Assembly: GCF_002215215.1 (NCBI RefSeq)
Contig: NZ_CP018632.1
Span: forward strand, 6,940,501 to 7,004,500
From: Granulosicoccus antarcticus IMCC3135
GTDB taxonomy: Bacteria; Pseudomonadota; Gammaproteobacteria; Granulosicoccales; Granulosicoccaceae
Reading direction: 5' to 3'
DNA: 64,000 bases
The notes under the pieces were generated by a model. The model was not told where the DNA came from, did not search any database, and worked only from the letters and a program-made list of their open reading frames with translations. Position 1 is the stretch's first letter, and each line of letters opens with the position of its first letter. Position numbers and translations under genes: made by a program. Positions 5,553-64,000 of this stretch are shown in pieces.

Positions 5553-7853
5553 TCAGGCTACGCGGGCCAGGGACCAGTCGGTGGCAAACAGCATCGGCAT
5601 TTTTGATGCTTCAACAGGACGACTGAAATAGTAGCCCTGAATATAGGGGCAACCCCTTTCTCGCAGGACTTCAAGCTGATCTGCGCTCTCCACACCCTCG
5701 GCAACGATGTCGTACCCCAGGCCAAGCGCCAGATCAATGATGGCTCGCACCATAAGCTGCGATGCAGGCTCACTGGCAACACCATCAATGAATGACTTGT
5801 CGATCTTCAGAGTGTCTACCTCCAGATTCCCCAGCACCGACAACGATGAATAACCGGTACCAAAATCATCGATGGCAATCCTCACCCCTCGGCTTCTGAG
5901 CTCATGGCATATCAGTCTATGCTCTTCAGGGTCGCGACTGAGACTTTCTGTTATCTCGATTTCTATATCCTGGAATCTCAACTGATGCAGTTCTATCGTT
6001 TTTACGATGAAGTTACAAAAATTGGCGGCGATGAAATGATCTCCAGAAATATTGACCGCCATGCTCAGCTTCAGGCCCATATTGTTCCACTCACGTAGTT
6101 GAGTGCAGGCCGTGGCAAACACCCACTCACCGATCTCCTTGATCATGCCAACCCGCTCAGCCGTTGATATGAAAAGATCGGGTTGAATCATGCCTCTTTC
6201 AGGATGTCTCCAGCGTATCAGGGCCTCCACACCCATCAAGCAGTTGTCACGTATATTGATCTTGGGTTGATACCAGAGTTCGAATTGCCCTTCAGCCAAA
6301 GCCTGGCGCAAGTCTGCCTCCAGACGGACACGCTCCTGACTCTCAGATGCCATTTCAGGCTGGTAAAAGGCATAACTCTGCTTGCCTGCCAATTTGACTG
6401 TATACATTGCCATATCCGCACACTTGACCAGATCATCCGCCAGCCTGGCGTTATCGGGATACAGTGCAACACCAATACTCAATCTGGGATGAATCCTGTG
6501 ATTGTTCAGTTGCACTGCCTGTTGTGTATATCCCATGCAACGAAGCACCATATCCTCTACCGATTCGCGCATAGCGACATCACTGATCAGCAAACAGAAT
6601 TCATCGCCTCCCAAACGAGCAGCCATATCGGTTCGCCGGGTAATTTCACGCAAAAAATTCGCAAAGTGCGTTAAGTACGCATCACCCGAAGCATGACCAT
6701 AGGAGTCATTGACCCCCTTGAAATCATCAAGGTCTATATAGATGATCGCAAATTCCTGTCCACGCATTTCCGACTGGATGATTTCAGCATCCAGACGCTC
6801 ATGAAAATGCGCTCGATTAGCCAGGCCGGTTAATTCGTCATAATAGGCCATGCTGTAGATTTTCTGCTCGGCCGACTTGATATCGGTGATGTCCTGAACT
6901 GCCCCAAGCAAGGTGTCGCGACCCTCTGAATCGCTGATGAGCTTGACCATGAGGCGCATGTCTCGCAGGCCGCTATCATTTGGGGCGTACACTCGGCACT
7001 CCACTTCGACATCCTCACCTGTTTCAATAACACGGGTACAGGCATTCTCCACTTTCAGTCTGTCGTGATGATGAATTCTGGAGAAGGTGGCTCTGATGTC
7101 CACCTTTGAGATATCCACATCGGAGGAGTCGTAACCAAACATGATCGACAAACGCGTTGACAGACTGACTGATCTGGACCTGAGATCCCACTGCCAGTAA
7201 CCTAGCTTCGCCATTTGCTCGGTGGTACGAATCAGCTCAAGATTGTTCTCCTGCGAGTCCTGCCTGAGCCGCAACAAGTCAATATAGTTCTTGCCTACTT
7301 CTCTGCCACAACTGATCAGAAAACCAAAAACGAAGCAGCTGAACAGGGCCAGCTCGTACGCAAAAGCGCTACCATCAAACAGCAGACGCAAAACGACAGA
7401 GGCAAAAATCAGTATCTGAAACTTGTTACTGAGACGCAAGTCATAGGGTAGCGATGCCAACGCACCACCGGCCACCGCACCGAGAGTCAGTACCAGTAAC
7501 ACCTGATGTGCCTGATCGGTTTCGGGGTAGATCAGCCACATGGCTGATGCCCAGGCAGTAGCCGAGGCTAGTGCACCAATAGCAAAACGTCGCGACCAAT
7601 GGTGAACGTGCTGTTGGCGCGAGACTGACCTTTTGAACAATTGGCAATCCAGCGCCCGAAGCAGATAGGCAACGTACAGAGCGCCAAACCATATCCAGAC
7701 ACCGACCGGCGAACTCGCCAGGGGACCAAAAGTATAAACACCCACCCCGGCTGCCAGTAGCGAACCTGCAACCGAAAACTTGACGCCCTTGTACAGGAGA
7801 ACGTTCTGGTTGTGCCTTATCGCATTATTCCTGGCTAAGGTGGTGCTGCCCAT
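5553..7853 (-). CDS. Membrane PAS-GGDEF-EAL c-di-GMP turnover protein
   Basis: A 766-residue protein. The first roughly 195 residues hold several membrane helices (a MASE-like sensor). A PAS domain follows at about 205-325, GGDEF at about 335-500 and EAL at about 510-760. The cyclase signature GGDEF is intact near residue 415, with an RXXD inhibitory-site motif (RRTD) five residues before it. The EAL domain retains EALIRW (about 542), VNIS, EITES, DDFGTGYSSL, the KIDKSF lysine and AEGVE, so phosphodiesterase activity is expected too. Both halves therefore look competent; which dominates cannot be told from sequence. It is a single gene, with 195 bp separating it from the ABC transporter operon. 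Confidence 0.92.
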   Translation of the reverse strand: MGSTTLARNNAIRHNQNVLLYKGVKFSVAGSLLAAGVGVYTFGPLASSPVGVWIWFGALYVAYLLRALDCQLFKRSVSRQQHVHHWSRRFAIGALASATAWASAMWLIYPETDQAHQVLLVLTLGAVAGGALASLPYDLRLSNKFQILIFASVVLRLLFDGSAFAYELALFSCFVFGFLISCGREVGKNYIDLLRLRQDSQENNLELIRTTEQMAKLGYWQWDLRSRSVSLSTRLSIMFGYDSSDVDISKVDIRATFSRIHHHDRLKVENACTRVIETGEDVEVECRVYAPNDSGLRDMRLMVKLISDSEGRDTLLGAVQDITDIKSAEQKIYSMAYYDELTGLANRAHFHERLDAEIIQSEMRGQEFAIIYIDLDDFKGVNDSYGHASGDAYLTHFANFLREITRRTDMAARLGGDEFCLLISDVAMRESVEDMVLRCMGYTQQAVQLNNHRIHPRLSIGVALYPDNARLADDLVKCADMAMYTVKLAGKQSYAFYQPEMASESQERVRLEADLRQALAEGQFELWYQPKINIRDNCLMGVEALIRWRHPERGMIQPDLFISTAERVGMIKEIGEWVFATACTQLREWNNMGLKLSMAVNISGDHFIAANFCNFIVKTIELHQLRFQDIEIEITESLSRDPEEHRLICHELRSRGVRIAIDDFGTGYSSLSVLGNLEVDTLKIDKSFIDGVASEPASQLMVRAIIDLALGLGYDIVAEGVESADQLEVLRERGCPYIQGYYFSRPVEASKMPMLFATDWSLARVA

Positions 7854-8048
7854 CAGTGAGTTGCTCAGATGCTATGGCAAGTGATACGGCATCCTTGATA
7901 TTCCCGTCCGACTCGCTACCCGTACCAGATCGGCGGAAACCAGAATGACTTTAGCGGCTTACCAATTAATCTTCTGAGTAAACCACCTAAAAATGTAACC
8001 TATGGACAGATCCATACTGCGCGGCTTCACAACATTGCCGAACAGCAC

Positions 8049-8933
8049 TCAGCGCGTGTCGGCCTGATACTCCAGTCGACGAAACAGCATCGACAGTACA
8101 AAACAGATCAGGAAATAGAAGGCGGCAGTCGTAATCCAGGCCTCAAAAATGGCTCGGGTGGAAGCAACCAGCTCCACCGTTTTGAAGGTCAGCTCCTGCA
8201 CCGATATCAAAGAGATGATGGAACTGTCCTTGATGAGGGAGATGAACTGGTTAGCCATGGGTGGCACGACTTTTTTCATCGCTTGTGGCAATACGATAAA
8301 TCGCATCTGGTCGATGCGTGACATGCCAATGGATTGAGCCGCTTCGTGCTGTCCTTTGCCAATCGACTGAATGCCCGCTCGTACTATCTCACCAACAAAG
8401 GCGCTTTCGAATAGCGCCAGCACGATAACACCGGACACCAGCGAAGGAAATCGGCGCATGTCACCAAAGAAAAACTCCCAGGCAGCCTTGTCCTCGGAGC
8501 GAGCGATGGCTCTTGCCCATGATTCGATATTGAAGGCAACGACGAGTTGCTCGGAAAGAAAGAAGTAGAAAATGAAGATGACAACAACAGGTGGGATATT
8601 GCGCAGAAACTCAAGGTAGGTTCTTGCCAACATCCGGATAGCCAGATTGGTGGAGCATCTGGCAATACCGAGCAAGGTTCCCAGCACAATTGCCAGGACA
8701 CTGGCATACACACTGACTCTAAGGGTGGTTATGACACCTTGCAGCAATATATTGGGGACCCAGCTTTGCGTCTCCTCATTCCAGCGCAGAATGTAGTTGG
8801 GGATGATTTCCCATCGCCACTTGTAATTCAGTGCACCATCAATGCGATACCAGACGATTGCCACAAACGCGGCAAGCACGACCAGGATGAGCACATCCAG
8901 CCAGTGAAATCGCTTGAGAGTCCGAGAGATCAT
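8049..8933 (-). CDS. Polar amino-acid ABC transporter permease (second permease)
   Basis: A HisM/GltK-type inner-membrane permease of about 294 residues with the EAA-loop pattern (EAAQSIGMSRIDQMRFIVLPQA), which docks onto the ATPase. The N-terminal extension before the first conserved helix is long, as in glutamate/aspartate-type permeases. I chose the ATG at 8933: the alternative TTG at 8954 falls inside the stem-loop 8942-8968. It is the last gene of a four-gene operon (ATPase, permease, binding protein, permease), separated from the binding-protein gene by that stem-loop. Substrate class, polar amino acid, follows from the family; the exact ligand is unknown. Confidence 0.88.
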   Translation of the reverse strand: MISRTLKRFHWLDVLILVVLAAFVAIVWYRIDGALNYKWRWEIIPNYILRWNEETQSWVPNILLQGVITTLRVSVYASVLAIVLGTLLGIARCSTNLAIRMLARTYLEFLRNIPPVVVIFIFYFFLSEQLVVAFNIESWARAIARSEDKAAWEFFFGDMRRFPSLVSGVIVLALFESAFVGEIVRAGIQSIGKGQHEAAQSIGMSRIDQMRFIVLPQAMKKVVPPMANQFISLIKDSSIISLISVQELTFKTVELVASTRAIFEAWITTAAFYFLICFVLSMLFRRLEYQADTR

Positions 8934-9892: not shown

Positions 9893-10723
9893 CTACTGGA
9901 TAGAATAGCGGCGTTCGACTAACGATACACCAACGGACATTATCAAAGTCACCACCAGATAAACCGCGGCGATGGTGAACCATATTTCAAAACTCATGTA
10001 CGTATCGGATATTAAATTGCGACCAACAGTGGTCAGCTCGGCAACAGCAATGACACTGACAATGGCAGAGCTCTTGACCATGTTGACCATTTCACCCGTC
10101 ATGGGTGGCAACATGAATCGTACCGACTGAGGTAGTACGATATACCGATACGATTGGACCTTGCTCATGCCAATGGACGACGCCCCTTCCCATTGGCCTT
10201 TGGGAACCGCCTGAATACCTGCGCGGAATATCTCCGAGACAAGTGCTGCGTGATAGACACCCAGACATAGAATGCTGGCTTCGAAGCGATCCAGATCAAA
10301 GATGGGTCCCAACACATAATAGAATAGATACAGCAGGACCAATAATGGCGTATTACGAACAATTTCCAAAAAAACAAAGGCCACCGCAGTTCCTACCAAC
10401 AAGTCCGACAGTCGCAGAACGGCGACCAGCAATCCCAGACCAATGGCCAACACAAAAGCCAGCAGTGATAACTGCAGTGTCTTGACCAGACCAATTGCAA
10501 TTTCTCCCCACTGAAAACCATCATCAGTCATGGTCCAGAGGTACTTGGGAATACGATACCACTGCCAGTTGTAACCCATCGCCTTCGAGCCGTTGTAGGC
10601 CGAATACACAATGACTCCCATCACAACCAGATAGATCAGTATCGAGACGGGCGTTGATGAAAAAAATCGACCCAACAGAGGCGGCTTGGGGCTTACATAC
10701 TCTGTTGCAGGAGTGCCAGCCAT
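9893..10723 (-). CDS. Polar amino-acid ABC transporter permease (first permease)
   Basis: A HisM-type permease of about 276 residues with the EAA loop (EGASSIGMSKVQSYRYIVLPQS) and the usual helices. The start at 10723 is chosen because its ATG overlaps the TGA stop of the ATPase gene (TGATG), typical of translational coupling. A longer frame to 10759 exists but would overlap the ATPase by 37 bases. It should pair with the second permease (8049-8933) to form a heterodimeric channel. The paired permeases are similar in kind but not duplicates. Confidence 0.9.
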   Translation of the reverse strand: MAGTPATEYVSPKPPLLGRFFSSTPVSILIYLVVMGVIVYSAYNGSKAMGYNWQWYRIPKYLWTMTDDGFQWGEIAIGLVKTLQLSLLAFVLAIGLGLLVAVLRLSDLLVGTAVAFVFLEIVRNTPLLVLLYLFYYVLGPIFDLDRFEASILCLGVYHAALVSEIFRAGIQAVPKGQWEGASSIGMSKVQSYRYIVLPQSVRFMLPPMTGEMVNMVKSSAIVSVIAVAELTTVGRNLISDTYMSFEIWFTIAAVYLVVTLIMSVGVSLVERRYSIQ

Positions 10724-11466
10724 CAGTGTTCCAGTATCTGCTCCAGAAAGAGCCTGCACCGCTCCGTCTCCGGGTCGGTGAAGAATTTTTCCGGTGGCGC
10801 CGTTTCGATGATTTCACCGCCGTCCATGAAGATCATCGTATCGGCAACCTTTCTGGCAAATCCCATCTCATGCGTGACGCAGACCATGGTCATGCCGGTG
10901 TTAGCCAGACTCACCATGACATCCAGCACCTCGTTGATCATTTCAGGATCCAGCGCCGATGTCGGCTCATCAAAAAGCATAATGCGGCTTTCCATGCACA
11001 AAGATCTTGCAATGGCGACTCGCTGCTGCTGGCCACCGGATAACTGACTGGGGTACTTGTCCGCCTGCTCGGGAATATGCACCCGTTCAAGATAACGGTG
11101 TGCGGTCGCGTTAGCTTCTGTCCGAGATACCTTGCGCACCCGCATGGGCCCGATAGTGAGATTCTCCAGAACAGTCAGATGCGGAAACAGATTGAATTGC
11201 TGGAACACCATGCCCACTTCCTGGCGCAGCTTGCGAATCTGCTTCGAGCCTTCAAAAATCTCGATGCCATCCACGACAAGCTTGCCCGCACTGTGATGCT
11301 CCAGCGCATTGAAACACCGGATAAGCGTCGACTTGCCTGAACCCGAAGGGCCGCAGATGACCACTCGCTCACCCTGATGAACGGTCATGCTGATGTTTCT
11401 GAGAGCCTGAAAGGAGCCGTAAAATTTGTCCAACCCTTCAGCCTGGATAATAGGTGTGCCCTTCAT
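10723..11466 (-). CDS. Polar amino-acid ABC transporter ATP-binding protein
   Basis: A GlnQ-type ATPase of about 247 residues with all motifs: Walker [11 protein letters not shown]-loop [13 protein letters not shown], signature [15 protein letters not shown], Walker [15 protein letters not shown], and the switch histidine (VTHE). I start at the ATG 11466; an upstream in-frame ATG at 11520 would add 18 residues unlike the family. It is the first gene of the operon and energises uptake through the two permeases. The 188-bp region between it and the divergent dioxygenase gene should hold both promoters. Confidence 0.93.
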
Positions 11467-11654: not shown

Positions 11655-12635
11655 ATGAGCAACAACTCATCAAGCAACGCCATAAAACTCGCTCAGGAAC
11701 CAATACCGGTCATCGATATCTCCCCATTGCGTCGCGGTGAGGATCCGAGTGCTGTTGCGCACGCCCTGCATGCCGCCAGCCAGGGTTTAGGCTTCATCTA
11801 CGTCAAAGGTCATGGTATCGAACCATCCAGTATTGAAGCCGCTCGAGCTGCGGCCTATCAGTTCTTCCGAGCACCCGATGAGCAGAAGGCGATGGTCAAC
11901 GTCTCGGCTCAGCATCGTGGCTGGTTGCGGCCGGGCGGCGCAAAAATGCAGGACAATGCCGCCGTTGATTTGAAGGAAAGTTTCATCTGGGGCTATCAGG
12001 ATGCTAACGGCCATACAGAATCAGATCATGCTTTGCGCGGCCCCAATCAATGGCCCGATTCGGTACCGCAACTACAGAGCGCGGCGATGGACTATTTCAA
12101 TCAGGCACATCAAGTTGCCTACCAGCTGATGCGCGGATTCGCTTTGGGTTTGAACCTGCCGGAGGACTTCTTCCTGCGTAGTTGCGAACGCCCTATCAGT
12201 CGAGGCTCATTTGTCTATTACCCACCACAGGACGTGACTCAGTCGGAGCCGCAGTTTGGCGTCGGACCTCATACTGATTTTGGCGTGTTGACGGTACTCT
12301 GCCAGGACAATGTGGGCGGCTTGCAAGTACAGAACGTGAATGGCGACTGGATTGAGGCAACACCCATCAAGGACACACTGATCGTCAACGTCGGCGATCT
12401 ACTGTCCCGCTGGACCGATGGCGCTTACAAATCAACCCCCCATCGTGTCACCAATACATCCGGCCGTGAGCGACTCTCACTGGTGCTGGCTTTTGATCCG
12501 GACCCGGACACACTCATAGATGCAAGAGAGATATACGGTAAAGGCCACCAGCCTGCCGAAGAAGCCATCACCTGTGGAGACTATCTGCTCTGGCGATTTG
12601 CCAAAGCCTTCTCCTATCGCAACGCAACCCAGTGA
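11655..12635 (+). CDS. 2-oxoglutarate/Fe(II)-dependent dioxygenase (isopenicillin N synthase-like)
   Basis: About 326 residues. The N-terminal DIOX_N part (PVIDISPLR, GFIYVKGHGI) is followed by the jelly-roll with iron ligands HTD and a distal His in STPHRV, then the 2-oxoglutarate-binding Arg in RERLSL. The ATG at 11655 gives a family-like N-terminus; the frame is open upstream but that stretch is not conserved-looking. Family members hydroxylate or oxidise small molecules; the substrate is unknown. It is the first gene of a plus-strand operon with the XRE-cupin, CMD-like and NicX-like genes, facing the amino-acid ABC transporter. Probably it performs an early oxidation of the imported compound (inference). 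Confidence 0.88.
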   Translation: MSNNSSSNAIKLAQEPIPVIDISPLRRGEDPSAVAHALHAASQGLGFIYVKGHGIEPSSIEAARAAAYQFFRAPDEQKAMVNVSAQHRGWLRPGGAKMQDNAAVDLKESFIWGYQDANGHTESDHALRGPNQWPDSVPQLQSAAMDYFNQAHQVAYQLMRGFALGLNLPEDFFLRSCERPISRGSFVYYPPQDVTQSEPQFGVGPHTDFGVLTVLCQDNVGGLQVQNVNGDWIEATPIKDTLIVNVGDLLSRWTDGAYKSTPHRVTNTSGRERLSLVLAFDPDPDTLIDAREIYGKGHQPAEEAITCGDYLLWRFAKAFSYRNATQ

Positions 12636-58708: not shown

Positions 58709-58803
58709 CAGCCAACTGCCAACCAATTGTGGCCGGCGCGCGTTCTGAGGTACTCATGGTTGCGTGCCGGCCGCAAGTGACAAGTCCATCGTTTTGTTAG
58801 CTG
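58709..58803 (-). other. attC-like recombination site 1 (after 59029-59277)
   Basis: Outer boxes CAGCCAAC (58709-58716) and GTTAGCTG (58796-58803) pair with one mismatch. Inner arms around AATTGTGGCCGGC and GCCGGCCGCAAGTG pair strongly. Length about 95 bp. Confidence 0.72.
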
Positions 58804-59028
58804 TACCATTAATGAACATTCGCCCCCCATATTTGCTTGTAGTCGAATTATATTCTAGATTATTTGTTCGCCCACAAGCCATGTCTAAGCAATTTTAATT
58901 TTATCGATCTATCTAAGTTGACATTTTTATTTGCTATTTATTCGACATCTCAAATATACAGAATGTTCTTCTTTATCTTTACCGCCCCCGTAAGCTTACT
59001 TAATCTTGACAAGATTGAAATAGTCGTC

Positions 59029-59277
59029 CTACGCTTTGTTATTTACTTTGACGCTAAAGGTGCCACGTACTAGTGCGATGACTATCAGAGCTGCGTAGGA
59101 TCCTACGATTACCAAAACACCTTCCGCGGTAAAGCTAAATACAACTGCCAAAATAATTGACCCTATAACTAGGGTGCTGAAAAACTTCATCCAATTGATA
59201 GATTTAAATTTTTCTTTCAATTTTTCTAACAATGCAAAAACTACAAGTACAGCGATGAATCCAATTAGTAACTCCAT
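59029..59277 (-). CDS. Small membrane protein of unknown function (cassette gene)
   Basis: 82 residues with an N-terminal helix (IGFIAVLVVFALL), a short basic stretch (KLKEKFKS), and one or two further hydrophobic segments (about 37-70). No family recognised. An AGGA ribosome-site-like element stands upstream. It is cassette cargo between attC-like sites at 58709-58803 and 59426-59522. The 225 bp between its stop and its attC is AT-rich and empty. Confidence 0.6.
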   Translation of the reverse strand: MELLIGFIAVLVVFALLEKLKEKFKSINWMKFFSTLVIGSIILAVVFSFTAEGVLVIVGSYAALIVIALVRGTFSVKVNNKA

Positions 59278-59425
59278 TTAGGTATCGTCCTCATATTTAT
59301 CTCATTCATAACTTTAGCATTCATTTTTTATTCCTGCCAAACCCCGTAATTTCCAAAGAAATAATTTTTCATGTCCCTTCAGCCTTAGAATGTTTTGCCT
59401 GAATAGAAATGTAAATGATAGGTAC

Positions 59426-59522
59426 GGCTAACAATCACAATAAGGTGAGCTTGAGGCTGACGCGACGGAGCGGCAGCGCAGGAGTCGCAGGGTCAAGCTA
59501 CAGCTTCATTGTCTGGTTAGGC
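59426..59522 (-). other. attC-like recombination site 2 (after 59552-60403)
   Basis: GGCTAAC (59426-59432) and GTTAGGC (59516-59522) are textbook R' and R'' boxes. Inner arms GTGAGCTTGA and TCAAGCTACAGC pair. Length about 97 bp, 29 bp beyond the stop of the PIN-like gene. Confidence 0.85.
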
Positions 59523-59551
59523 CACATTTTTTTGCACGATCTCAGCCTCTT

Positions 59552-60403
59552 CTATGCCAGTACTTCCCCATCTGGTCTGAGCACGAGAAACCAATTCTTC
59601 AACTTGATTTCTTTCGTCGCGAAAGAACCCTGGAGTACACCTTGGACAAGATACTCTAGGTCTATCATATCGTGTTCGAATTTCGTGTATGTCTTCGTCG
59701 ACATCGGTTTTGGCATTGAACCCTGATATCTCACACCTGCATCCAGAGCAAAGAGAAGTTTCGCTTGAACCCATCTATATAACGCCCAATGCGAGTCTAT
59801 TGTATCCGCCCGAGGCCAAGGTGGTTTAGATTTTTCCGGCTGCCAGATAGCGTCATAAAGCAGTCGAATCACATCTTCGTCGCCAACTATTTTTGCTTCT
59901 ATTTCTTTATGCTTCAGGCTGCGCTGCTCCGTGCTTCCCTCTTTTAGTTTTGGAAAGTTCACGTACAAATTTTCCATCCAGCCGCTCAGGAGCTTCACTT
60001 GCTCCGCGAAATATTTTTCCCATTCACCTAAGAGACGTGTCTCTGTATCGGTGAAGTCATAGGCCGACTGTTCCTTGAACTTTGGATTGAAAAAATACGG
60101 TGCATCCACTGAATAGTCTTCTAAAACGCCAAATGGCTCTTGAGTTTCAATCTCCGCGTGCAAGATATTGTCTATGTCAGTTATTACATCGAACGGATTT
60201 TCCATTTCTGGGATTTTCGCGAAACATCTCGATCGTCCAGGCTCAGATGTAGACATCAACTCATAGAACAATACGCTTGGCATGAGAAAGCGTCGTTTTT
60301 TGAGCATATCTCGAAACGGTATTGCGCCGGTTGCTTGCAGATAGCTCTTGTCCAGCACGATGGATTGACACATAGGTAGCTCTTCGATATCTCTTCTTGC
60401 CAT
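59552..60403 (-). CDS. PIN-like domain protein (cassette gene)
   Basis: 283 residues. The N-terminal IVLDKSYLQATG, the following PSVLFYELMS and the late KFEHDMIDLEYL give acidic residues placed as in PIN-like ribonuclease folds (first Asp, middle Glu, late Asp). This is inferred from pattern only. The start may be 60403 or the second ATG at 60373, which puts VLD closer to the N-terminus as is usual. The gene begins 18 bp inside its cassette. PIN-like proteins are often toxins or defence nucleases; no antitoxin partner is in the same cassette. Confidence 0.6.
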   Translation of the reverse strand: MARRDIEELPMCQSIVLDKSYLQATGAIPFRDMLKKRRFLMPSVLFYELMSTSEPGRSRCFAKIPEMENPFDVITDIDNILHAEIETQEPFGVLEDYSVDAPYFFNPKFKEQSAYDFTDTETRLLGEWEKYFAEQVKLLSGWMENLYVNFPKLKEGSTEQRSLKHKEIEAKIVGDEDVIRLLYDAIWQPEKSKPPWPRADTIDSHWALYRWVQAKLLFALDAGVRYQGSMPKPMSTKTYTKFEHDMIDLEYLVQGVLQGSFATKEIKLKNWFLVLRPDGEVLA

Positions 60404-60420
60404 CTAGAAGGTGGGCTTGT

Positions 60421-60522
60421 GGTCTAACAACAGCGCTGACGTGAGCTGGAAGCGTATGCGGGTTCTGGCGTAGCCAGGTTCCGTGGCCGGGTCCAGCTAC
60501 AGGTCCAGCGTACTGTTATAAT
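60421..60522 (-). other. attC-like recombination site 3 (overlaps the end of 60497-61531)
   Basis: GGTCTAAC (60421-60428) and GTTATAA (60515-60521) are the outer boxes. Inner arms CAGCGCTGACGTGAGCTGG and CCAGCTACAGGTCCAGCG pair well. The stop codon of the HEPN-like gene and its last residues lie inside this site. Confidence 0.82.
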
Positions 60523-61531
60523 TCAATTTGCTTTCGCATGTACTCTGTGGTGAAGGCGGAGCACTAGGCAGGTCCAGCCAAGGCGGCTTCTTGAACGTAA
60601 ATTTCGCATTCTTCACGCCGTAAGTTCGATCTAGACTGTCAGCGTAGAATGATGTTATGGCTAGACTAGACATATAGAAATTGAATATGTAATCGCTAGA
60701 CATTTCGTCGCCTTGACAGTATCTGCGCTTAACAGCTTCCGATCCGGATATCATGTTTCCAAAATACTCATCAAGCGAAGTCGAGTCAAAATCGGAGGGA
60801 GCCAAATCCCGCAGTTTACGAACATCATGGGTCTTGGTATAGCCAATAGACCTCTGTTCCAAAAATAGCTTTATGCTTTTCTCCACTGCCATGTGAAGCT
60901 CCCATATCGATACAGATTGACCTTCGGTATTGTTGCTTAATATTAGACAGATTGCGGTACGTATGTGTCCAACAATGCTGCCAGCAAATTCATTCAGAGA
61001 AGGACTTTCGAGCTTAGCGGTCATCAACCCTAAGTTTAGTGTTCTAGTATTCAACACTATTGTTCTAATTTCTGTGTCTAGTTTGTCGTGACCCTCTGCA
61101 GGAATCATTGAGGTGTTTGGTGGTGACAAAAACCAATCAGTGAGTTTATCTTCTGGTCGAACTTCAACAGGGAAAACCATGTTTGAGGAGACACCTTCTT
61201 CCACTACTTCCGAAACCGTTATCGCCATCCGTAGTTCAAACGGCGTATGGTTTATGAATACGACACCCGGAAGCTCGTCCGTTGGCTGATTTAGTTGGTC
61301 CCCATAAAAATCTTCGTACCATTTTCGGACATGCCAGTAGACAATAGCGAACCATGGTTTTTCGTGATAGTCCTCTTTCGTATCGCCTCTGACCTCTACG
61401 ATCACGTCGTCTACAAAATGCAGCGCTGCGCTTAAAACGCGACCACGAATCGGTTTCTGCTGTTTGGCTAAGTACGCGTCTATGAGTGGAATCCACTCGC
61501 GAACGTAGTCTCCAAATTTATCTTCGATCAC
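60497..61531 (-). CDS. HEPN-like domain protein (cassette gene)
   Basis: 344 residues from a GTG at 61531. The C-terminal third has LHMAVEKSIKLFLEQRSIG and KTHDVRKLRDLA, resembling HEPN domains (AxEKxLKxLL ... THDLxxL). The N-terminal two thirds is unrecognised. HEPN proteins include RNases of toxin-antitoxin and phage-defence systems, and non-catalytic adaptors. The last nine or so codons are encoded by the attC arm, so the C-terminus was probably shaped by cassette formation. The 61532-61548 leader is very short. Confidence 0.6.
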   Translation of the reverse strand: MIEDKFGDYVREWIPLIDAYLAKQQKPIRGRVLSAALHFVDDVIVEVRGDTKEDYHEKPWFAIVYWHVRKWYEDFYGDQLNQPTDELPGVVFINHTPFELRMAITVSEVVEEGVSSNMVFPVEVRPEDKLTDWFLSPPNTSMIPAEGHDKLDTEIRTIVLNTRTLNLGLMTAKLESPSLNEFAGSIVGHIRTAICLILSNNTEGQSVSIWELHMAVEKSIKLFLEQRSIGYTKTHDVRKLRDLAPSDFDSTSLDEYFGNMISGSEAVKRRYCQGDEMSSDYIFNFYMSSLAITSFYADSLDRTYGVKNAKFTFKKPPWLDLPSAPPSPQSTCESKLNYNSTLDL

Positions 61532-61548
61532 TTAGTATCTATCCTTGA

Positions 61549-61648
61549 GTTATAACTGCTGCGTTAACTTGCATTTGATACAAGCTGACCAGAGCGTCAG
61601 CGTCGGGAGGTTTGTGTCAAATGACAGGTTCGACGCTTTGTTCGGTCA
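61549..61648 (-). other. attC-like recombination site 4 (after 61787-62743)
   Basis: GTTATAAC (61549-61556) and the GTTCGGTC end (61640-61647) are the outer boxes. Inner arms GCATTTGATAC and GTGTCAAATGAC pair. About 100 bp; 138 bp separate it from the stop of its gene. Confidence 0.78.
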
Positions 61649-61786
61649 GTACTGAAGACTTACTTCTACTTGCGAGCTCCACTGCCTAACTTGTGACGGA
61701 TTACTTTACCGTTTTGTCCAACCTGCTGTGGTTCGTAACGAGAATGTTGGCCACTTGAATTATTTGACTACATCTTAATTTTCAGG

Positions 61787-62743
61787 CTAGTCTTTGCTGC
61801 GGTCAATCACCTTAATCCTAATGATTGAGATAAAAGGCACATTCTCGGCAGGTTCTTCATGTCCATTTAAACTATTCGAAAATCTCAACATATCACCTTG
61901 CTCATCCATGGCTATAAACAGGGAACTATTAACTCTTTTCTGACCACCATAACCGTTCATTGTAACTCCCAAGTACCCTTTTTCTAAATCCGTAACTAAT
62001 CGTGACCATTCGCAGGTTTTAGGGTCTACAACTGGTTTGCCAATTTCATTTGCAACAAGCATATTTAAAGTAGCTTCATCCAAACTAACACCAATTTTCA
62101 TGTCTGCAGTTTTTTCGCTTTTAGTCCACGTCACATGAAAGGGAAATAAATGCGCTGACTTGCTTTCCCAAAACTTACTTTTTGGCATAAGTAAAAACTT
62201 AGCACAATCTGATAACCCCTCAGATAGTGTGCCACCTAAAACATATGATCCGATTTTTCTTGAAGAGTCACTAACTCCAGACTTTAACACCAGCTCCCTT
62301 TTTCTATCCAGCTTTTCAAATAGTGCTCGTTCCTTTTTAGTCGATGAACCACCATCAATTTTATTGAATTTTCGAGTGTTTTTCCCTTGAAGTAAAAGCG
62401 CCTTTTTGTTTATTACATTCTTATCGGCATCACACTCTTCAATGATGTACAGCAGATCAGCTAGCTCGCATTTCACACTTTTTGTCCTTGCGACTCCGTG
62501 CGCTTGTGGCGTCCCATCAATCCAAATAGAGCTTATTTCCAAAGAGTATTTCGTGCCAGTGAGTATTTTAATTCCTAGTGCTAACCGATGCAAGTTACAT
62601 GCAGAGTGCAGATAACGCAAAGCCCATCGTTCTAGTGAACGACCTTTTTTTCCTTCGTAAATATAATGCCACAAATCCCAGTCAAATAAAAACACCAATA
62701 ACTCCAATTTTTTGTAAGCCAGGCACCGCCAAAAACGAACCAC
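61787..62743 (-). CDS. Hypothetical protein (cassette gene)
   Basis: 318 residues, basic, opening at a GTG (62743); an in-frame stop lies a few codons upstream, and no clear ribosome site is visible. The N-terminus is aromatic and hydrophobic (LVFLFDWDLWHYIYEG). The middle has KKERALFEKLDRKRELVL, and the end is beta-rich. No family recognised. AT-rich composition and its place between two attC-like sites mark it as cassette cargo. The 175 bp before it (62744-62918) is an unusually long AT-rich leader. Confidence 0.6.
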   Translation of the reverse strand: MVRFWRCLAYKKLELLVFLFDWDLWHYIYEGKKGRSLERWALRYLHSACNLHRLALGIKILTGTKYSLEISSIWIDGTPQAHGVARTKSVKCELADLLYIIEECDADKNVINKKALLLQGKNTRKFNKIDGGSSTKKERALFEKLDRKRELVLKSGVSDSSRKIGSYVLGGTLSEGLSDCAKFLLMPKSKFWESKSAHLFPFHVTWTKSEKTADMKIGVSLDEATLNMLVANEIGKPVVDPKTCEWSRLVTDLEKGYLGVTMNGYGGQKRVNSSLFIAMDEQGDMLRFSNSLNGHEEPAENVPFISIIRIKVIDRSKD

Positions 62744-63114
62744 GAAGGATATTTATTTATGCCAAAATATTATTGCTTTTCAGATTATATTTTAAGCAAA
62801 CACCACCAATAGATGCTATTTATTGTGCTGACAAAATATTCCAAAAACACTTTTTTCACTTATCCTGAAGTTAAAGAGAAATCAGCTCCTCAATAAAATA
62901 TTCGCTTTGCAGACCGAACACCAGCGCTAACCGGCATTTTACAAGGCGTAAGGTTGTGCGCGGAACGCGCGTTCTTTCGCCTTGTAAAATGACCGGTTCA
63001 GCGTATTGTCAGCATGATTTTCAATTTGCGGCGCGCATTATTTACACAGCAAAAACTTAAATTGCAGGTCTTATTCAGAACAGAAATACTGAAAAAGTAT
63101 AGCTTCACAAGTTG
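62744..63114. other. AT-rich leader plus attC-containing gap between cassette genes
   Basis: 371 bp without a gene. It holds the attC-like site at 62912-63013, the leader of the 61787-62743 gene on one side, and about 100 bp of AT-rich sequence on the other. Confidence 0.6.
62912..63013 (-). other. attC-like recombination site 5 with unusually long perfect arms
   Basis: GACCGAAC (62912-62919) is the outer box. ATTTTACAAGGCG (62936-62948) and CGCCTTGTAAAAT (62978-62990) pair perfectly. Flanking CCGG and AGCGCT/CAGCG elements extend the pairing to about 20 bp per arm. It follows the cassette gene 63115-63996. Confidence 0.78.
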
Positions 63115-63996
63115 CTAATTATTACCACTTGATTCATCTGTAGTAGATGTATGGTTCTCAAGCATTTCTAAAGCTGCTTTAAAGTAGTTTTCGATATACG
63201 ATTGCAATTGATACCCACTGATTTTACCCATCAACTCTTGTCTTTTCTTTTCCAACAGATCAATGACACGTCCTAACCAATCTAACTCAGAAATCAATGA
63301 CTCACAAAAATTTCTATATTCGTATCTTTTTTTAAGTGCAAAGCACACGCTGTCCTTCGCGTCAGGCGAGGCTTCTAAGAAGGAAGAAACAAAATCCTCA
63401 GGATTAATATGATTTAATATTGGCACTTCATAGTAGATATTCTCAGCATCATTGCTAAGCACTATCCTTCTATAAAACAAATTAGGGTCTGTAGCAATGA
63501 GACCAAGTAGCTCACGGCCAATATCAGGATATTTATCAACTATAGCTATCTCAGTTTGCTTTTCGATATACGCGATAAACGCTACAAATTCTTCAGAACC
63601 TCTCTCATGGAAACCAAGTCCACCCCATGATTCATTGATCCTAAACTGCGCATCAATAGAGCGATCCTTTGCTAACAGATCTCTATCTTTCAAATGATCA
63701 ATATATAGCTGGGCTTCTAGCAATATTTCCTCTGGTTTCTTTTCATACATATTTGCCTTCGATAGCCAAAGAAATATTCCAACTATATGCTTAACAACAC
63801 CTAGTTCCTCATACCTTCTTTCTTGATAATCATTGGCAACGAGTTCTAGTGCGACGCAAAACTCCTCGTCACTCAATGACATTGAATGCCACAACTTGCT
63901 CCATTCGGGTGTAGTTTCATTCCTGAAGTAGACTGATTTTTCGAGTGACTGTTGCATATTATCAGCTGAGCAATAACCACGATCGATAAAATCCAC
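63115..63996 (-). CDS. Hypothetical protein (cassette gene, 5' end at or beyond window edge)
   Basis: At least 293 residues. A GTG at 63996 gives the first visible start, but the frame is still open at the right edge, so the true start may lie outside. The protein is acidic and helical throughout, with no recognised motif or membrane segment. The C-terminal DESSGNN is polar. AT-rich. Its attC-like site is at 62912-63013. Confidence 0.55.
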   Translation of the reverse strand: MDFIDRGYCSADNMQQSLEKSVYFRNETTPEWSKLWHSMSLSDEEFCVALELVANDYQERRYEELGVVKHIVGIFLWLSKANMYEKKPEEILLEAQLYIDHLKDRDLLAKDRSIDAQFRINESWGGLGFHERGSEEFVAFIAYIEKQTEIAIVDKYPDIGRELLGLIATDPNLFYRRIVLSNDAENIYYEVPILNHINPEDFVSSFLEASPDAKDSVCFALKKRYEYRNFCESLISELDWLGRVIDLLEKKRQELMGKISGYQLQSYIENYFKAALEMLENHTSTTDESSGNN

Positions 63997-64000
63997 CCAT

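Follow-up and report, generated by a model that had tools for sequence, protein, structure and literature searches.

The integrase IntI of an active integron binds attC sites in the form of their folded bottom strand and cleaves the R box at G^TT; the cassettes are exchanged between attC and attI in circular form. Decayed integrons with frozen cassettes are already known from Xanthomonas, where intI was inactivated by stop codons or deletions, stable arrays were kept and CALINs are located away from the integron locus (PMC12444791). Sedentary chromosomal integrons have been described as stores of anti-phage defence, as summarized in PMC12444791 with reference to Darracq 2025 and Getz 2025. Moreover, group IIC-attC introns occur in integrons and CALINs (PMC7923331). 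A literature search revealed no earlier study of Granulosicoccus integrons. Here, we describe a cassette array of Granulosicoccus antarcticus which very probably is what remains of a complete chromosomal integron after decay of its integrase.

Results

The window, i.e. the whole stretch of 64,000 nucleotides that was analysed, corresponds to G000:C1:6940501-7004500 on the single 7.78-Mb contig of the genome. Its right end and the adjoining DNA are contained in the extract L017 (G000:C1:6998001-7018000), whose positions are converted to window coordinates by adding 57500. A preliminary description had reported five palindromes alternating with five same-strand genes. All of them are present, as a covariance-model search (cmsearch) and the list of open reading frames agree, and the genes are located on the minus strand. 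The array comprises ten attC sites within 14 kb, five of them in the window (58709-63015) and five past its right edge (Table 1), and each cassette consists of one or two genes and an attC site. The GC content is 0.37-0.46 across most of the array versus 0.50-0.55 in the right flank. With dnaA at position 683, the origin is approximately 0.77 Mb away from the array, whose genes are co-directional with the replication fork. Comparison of flanking genes yielded no clean empty site. The left-flank genes are syntenic in the congener G020, but unrelated genes without attC come next there; the right-flank cls gene is present in G024, where the array is absent.

Table 1: Features of the array and of related loci. 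Positions are window coordinates unless an extract (L017, L021) or the contig is named.
Feature	Position	Strand	Evidence
attC s1, last of the array	58709..58803	-	R1, 49.9 bits; R'' CAGCTAAC, R' GTTGGCTG
Cassette gene, 82 aa, probable membrane protein by composition	59029..59277	-	ORF; no Pfam family over cut-off
attC s2	59425..59523	-	R1, 87.9 bits
Cassette gene, 283 aa, orphan	59552..60403	-	No Pfam, NCBIfam, PADLOC or plasmid match
attC s3, overlaps stop end of 344-aa gene	60421..60522	-	R1, 72.2 bits
Cassette gene, 344 aa, HEPN-like	60497..61531	-	Weak Pfam HEPN match
attC s4	61549..61647	-	R1, 80.5 bits
Cassette gene, 318 aa, orphan	61787..62743	-	ORF, Pfam search
attC s5	62912..63015	-	R1, 59.1 bits
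Cassette gene, C-terminal part of 636-aa KAP P-loop ATPase	63115..64000 (whole gene L017:5615-7525)	-	ORF, Pfam, PADLOC
attC s6, cut by IS	L017:7554-7654, R'' half past IS near L017:8910		Recovered by R1
IS3-family element inside s6	L017 about 7628-8890 (65128-66390)		
attC s7	L017:10281-10379		R1
attC s8	L017:11796-11893		R1
attC s9	L017:13218-13316		R1
attC s10	L017:15186-15278		R1
First cassette, HNH_2 gene, beyond window	L017:15279-16103		ORF, Pfam
intI pseudogene	L017:16313-16688 = G000:C1:7014313-7014688 = 73813-74188	+	Alignment of congener IntI
attC cluster A, 10 sites, present array	Contig 6999209-7013278		R1
attC cluster B, 4 sites	Contig 218380-234938		R1
attC cluster C, 6 sites	Contig 7624417-7634676		R1
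Split tyrosine recombinase gene	Contig 202.7-206.2 kb (L021:6653-10274)		TIGR02249

The palindromes are canonical attC sites. A covariance model (R1) was trained on the nine uninterrupted sites of the array, leaving s6 outside the training set. The attC search of the window and its right side, which had been proposed beforehand, returned five minus-strand sites in the window (49.9-87.9 bits) and five more on the right. In these sites the R'' box RYYYAAC pairs with the R' box GTTRRRY, with the L boxes inside; only the R'' box of s5 deviates, by GAC in place of AAC. An extrahelical base, which marks the bottom strand, is visible in the L''/L' stem as the pattern GCGTTGAAC / GTTAACGC of the alignment. 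Among the nine sites both sides changed in 15 of 26 stem pairs, giving a covariation score of 0.349 versus 0.171 for shuffled alignments, and none of 500 shuffles reached the observed value. Slid stem registers dropped to 0.05-0.08, and the register is unique. Rfam matches in the window (mir-3479, snoR9) were far under their gathering scores and were taken as chance.

The R' and R'' boxes of successive sites had been said to be complementary to one another. Over all ten sites the neighbours match at 7, 6, 7, 7, 6, 7, 7, 6 and 6 of 7 positions. The mean agreement of R' with the reverse complement of the next R'' is 6.56 for neighbours versus 4.75 for non-adjacent pairs (permutation p = 6e-5), and the chaining is real. 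The IS3-family element within s6 is present as a single copy in the genome and carries imperfect 25-bp terminal repeats; a target duplication was not obvious. Beyond this element the R'' half of s6 still matches R' of s7 at 10/10 bases, which indicates that the IS inserted after the array had formed.

The whole-genome search with R1 revealed 20 strong sites of at least 48.9 bits, grouped in three clusters of uniform orientation each. Weaker matches were the best palindromes read on the reverse strand and, outside the clusters, two isolated hits (24-26 bits). R1 matches were found in 22 of the 27 genomes of the genus. In the congeners G012, G019 and G002 the model detected attC sites absent from its training set just downstream of an intact intI. 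For example, G012 possesses attC sites at positions 12522, 13456 and 15311 of L039 and intI at 9920-11323 on the opposite strand. This likeness, together with the box logic, the extrahelical base, the covariation and the strand asymmetry of the sites, supports the cassette array postulated in the preliminary description. Taking a CALIN as at least two clustered attC sites with no functional intI adjoining, the array, with ten sites spaced never more than 4 kb apart, belongs to this class.

Clusters B and C were also inspected. With dnaA at 683 as the reference, both run opposite to the fork, in contrast to cluster A. They contain three near-identical group IIC-type introns and partial copies (L045, L046 and L048; 218-237 kb and 7.62-7.64 Mb). 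The introns are inserted in the attC R'' box between TTTGT and GTACGCCC, antisense to the cassettes.

A genome-wide search with the profile TIGR02249 revealed no intact intI over cut-off in G. antarcticus; 16 of 26 congeners possess a match over cut-off. When congener IntI proteins were compared with the translated array flank, an intI remnant emerged 9.8 kb past the window edge, divergent to the first cassette gene and 0.2 kb away from its start. This short remnant consists of three collinear pieces corresponding to IntI residues 1-87 (46%), 238-263 (19/26; PLLQLENFARSKRKKIIPVVMSRAD) and 287-298. The first piece is 37-47% identical to its living relatives and contains two in-frame stop codons. 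The remainder of the gene, catalytic residues included, is deleted. In an independent whole-genome search with the N-terminal region of IntI the sole match was again this remnant (E 7.7e-14, 47% identity, two TAA).

Between the intI remnant and the first cassette lies a stretch that can be aligned to the attI region in three congeners, at a mean column identity of 73%. The congeners read AGTTG^TTCG and G. antarcticus reads ACTTT^TTATATC, a change of the crossover base from G to T. Hence the adjoining intI is a pseudogene, and the attI core departs from G^TTRRRY. The first cassette starts with TTATATCTC, which exactly complements GAGATATAA, the R'' end of the attC belonging to that cassette. 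Such a match is expected when a cassette has been inserted at attI. The earlier statement that no integrase is in view holds for the window and fails just outside it. On the right, where intI and attI were to be sought, both were found, intI as a pseudogene and attI with a mutated crossover. Their location at the expected place argues for a decayed complete integron and not for an orphan array of unclear origin.

In the closest congeners (L039:9920-11323, L041:9627-11042, L042:2856-4271) IntI carries a conserved N-terminal extension of approximately 150 residues that matches no Pfam family. Relatives of this extension were detected in 38 of 369 sampled gammaproteobacterial genomes, and at six of ten loci checked it was fused in one open reading frame to a nearly full IntI core. 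No description of the extension was found in a literature search. Since the main surviving piece of the remnant is this extension, which is outside the profile, a search with the standard intI profile overlooks fossils of this kind.

The cargo had been regarded as entirely of unknown or fold-level function, which is overstated. The KAP ATPase matches PADLOC PDC-S49, a candidate rather than a proven defence family, with 789 bits, and the HEPN-like 344-aa protein is 29% identical over 92% to a HEPN protein of a Thiothrix plasmid. Past the window the cassettes encode a 425-aa orphan, a DUF6602 protein with a NucC-like score, a PIN protein, a methyltransferase with a 201-aa partner, a RiboL-PSP-HEPN protein with GmrSD_N (NsnA-like) and the HNH_2 protein. 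The KAP ATPase family is not cassette-specific, since nine relatives encoded in other genomes lack a nearby attC of the R1 type. No relative of the 318-aa orphan was found in the other 273 gammaproteobacterial genomes sampled. A suspected PIN-like motif common to the 283-aa and 425-aa proteins was unsupported on testing, and AlphaFold models of two orphans, built without homologues, were unusable (pLDDT 33.5 and 31.5).

Discussion

The matching R' and R'' ends of neighbouring sites are probably the scar of past cassette insertions. From the sequence we infer past integron activity in this lineage, present immobility of the array, and the functions and expression of the cassettes. With intI in fragments and the attI crossover base mutated, cassette capture and shuffling in cis would have ended. 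The ten-site array appears frozen because the catalytic domain is missing from the intI remnant, and the cassette genes would now reside as ordinary chromosomal genes. They could be moved solely by IntI supplied in trans, which is possible in principle.

It is very unlikely that the array was built in trans, by an integrase encoded elsewhere that inserted cassettes at a non-attI site of a locus that never was an integron. The lack of an intact intI near the array speaks for such an origin, as do clusters B and C (218-235 kb and 7.62-7.63 Mb), in whose examined flanks no intI remnant was found. However, cluster A has the pseudogene and the attI remnant right beside its first cassette, in the canonical divergent layout, which largely refutes such an origin there. 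Still less probable is an array kept mobile by an unrecognised integrase of the genome, for which the split tyrosine recombinase would be the candidate, being the genome's best TIGR02249 match (109 bits, N-terminal part). We rejected this gene as intI: IS66-like genes split it, its matches omit model positions 179-240, where we place the IntI-specific patch III, and no attC adjoins it. The surrounding region contains other transposase genes as well.

The palindromes are located at gene ends, like terminators, and might separate ordinary genes as terminators or REP-like hairpins with no integron involved. The probability of this is practically negligible. Terminators would not be expected to show the conserved box order, the extrahelical base, the neighbour-specific R'/R'' match or remnants of attI and intI, and the 20 strong R1 matches are confined to three clusters. 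The decayed chromosomal integron is by far the preferred reading.

This locus shows a chromosomal integron after its death, in which fragments of intI and a mutated attI are found side by side with intact cassettes. Since living versions exist in many congeners, the fate of cassettes with and without an integrase can be compared cleanly. Some cassette genes fall into no detectable family, and others are defence candidates that merit testing. Judged from their domains, a defence role of several cassettes is plausible. A more speculative and rather improbable idea is that integrase loss was favoured for fixing a defence-rich set (KAP, HEPN, GmrSD/HEPN, NucC-like, HNH and orphans), which would constitute a permanent anti-phage island including undescribed defence genes.

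The locus resembles the sedentary defence integrons in that several cassettes carry defence-type domains. It differs by its small array and the absence of intI, and its PADLOC matches are candidates. The introns of clusters B and C behave like group IIC-attC introns, following TTTGT in the R'' box antisense to the cassettes (PMC7923331), whereas the interrupted attC site of cluster A holds an IS3-family element and no intron. The closest parallel is found in the decayed integrons of Xanthomonas, which share the chromosomal platform, the inactive intI, the kept array and CALINs elsewhere (PMC12444791). In contrast to these, the present case concerns another genus and another insertion place, and attI has additionally changed at its crossover base. 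The lost gene belonged to the intI type that encodes a long N-terminal extension. Like a CALIN, the array has ten attC sites without a functional intI; unlike a CALIN, it retains an intI fossil showing that it started as a complete integron.
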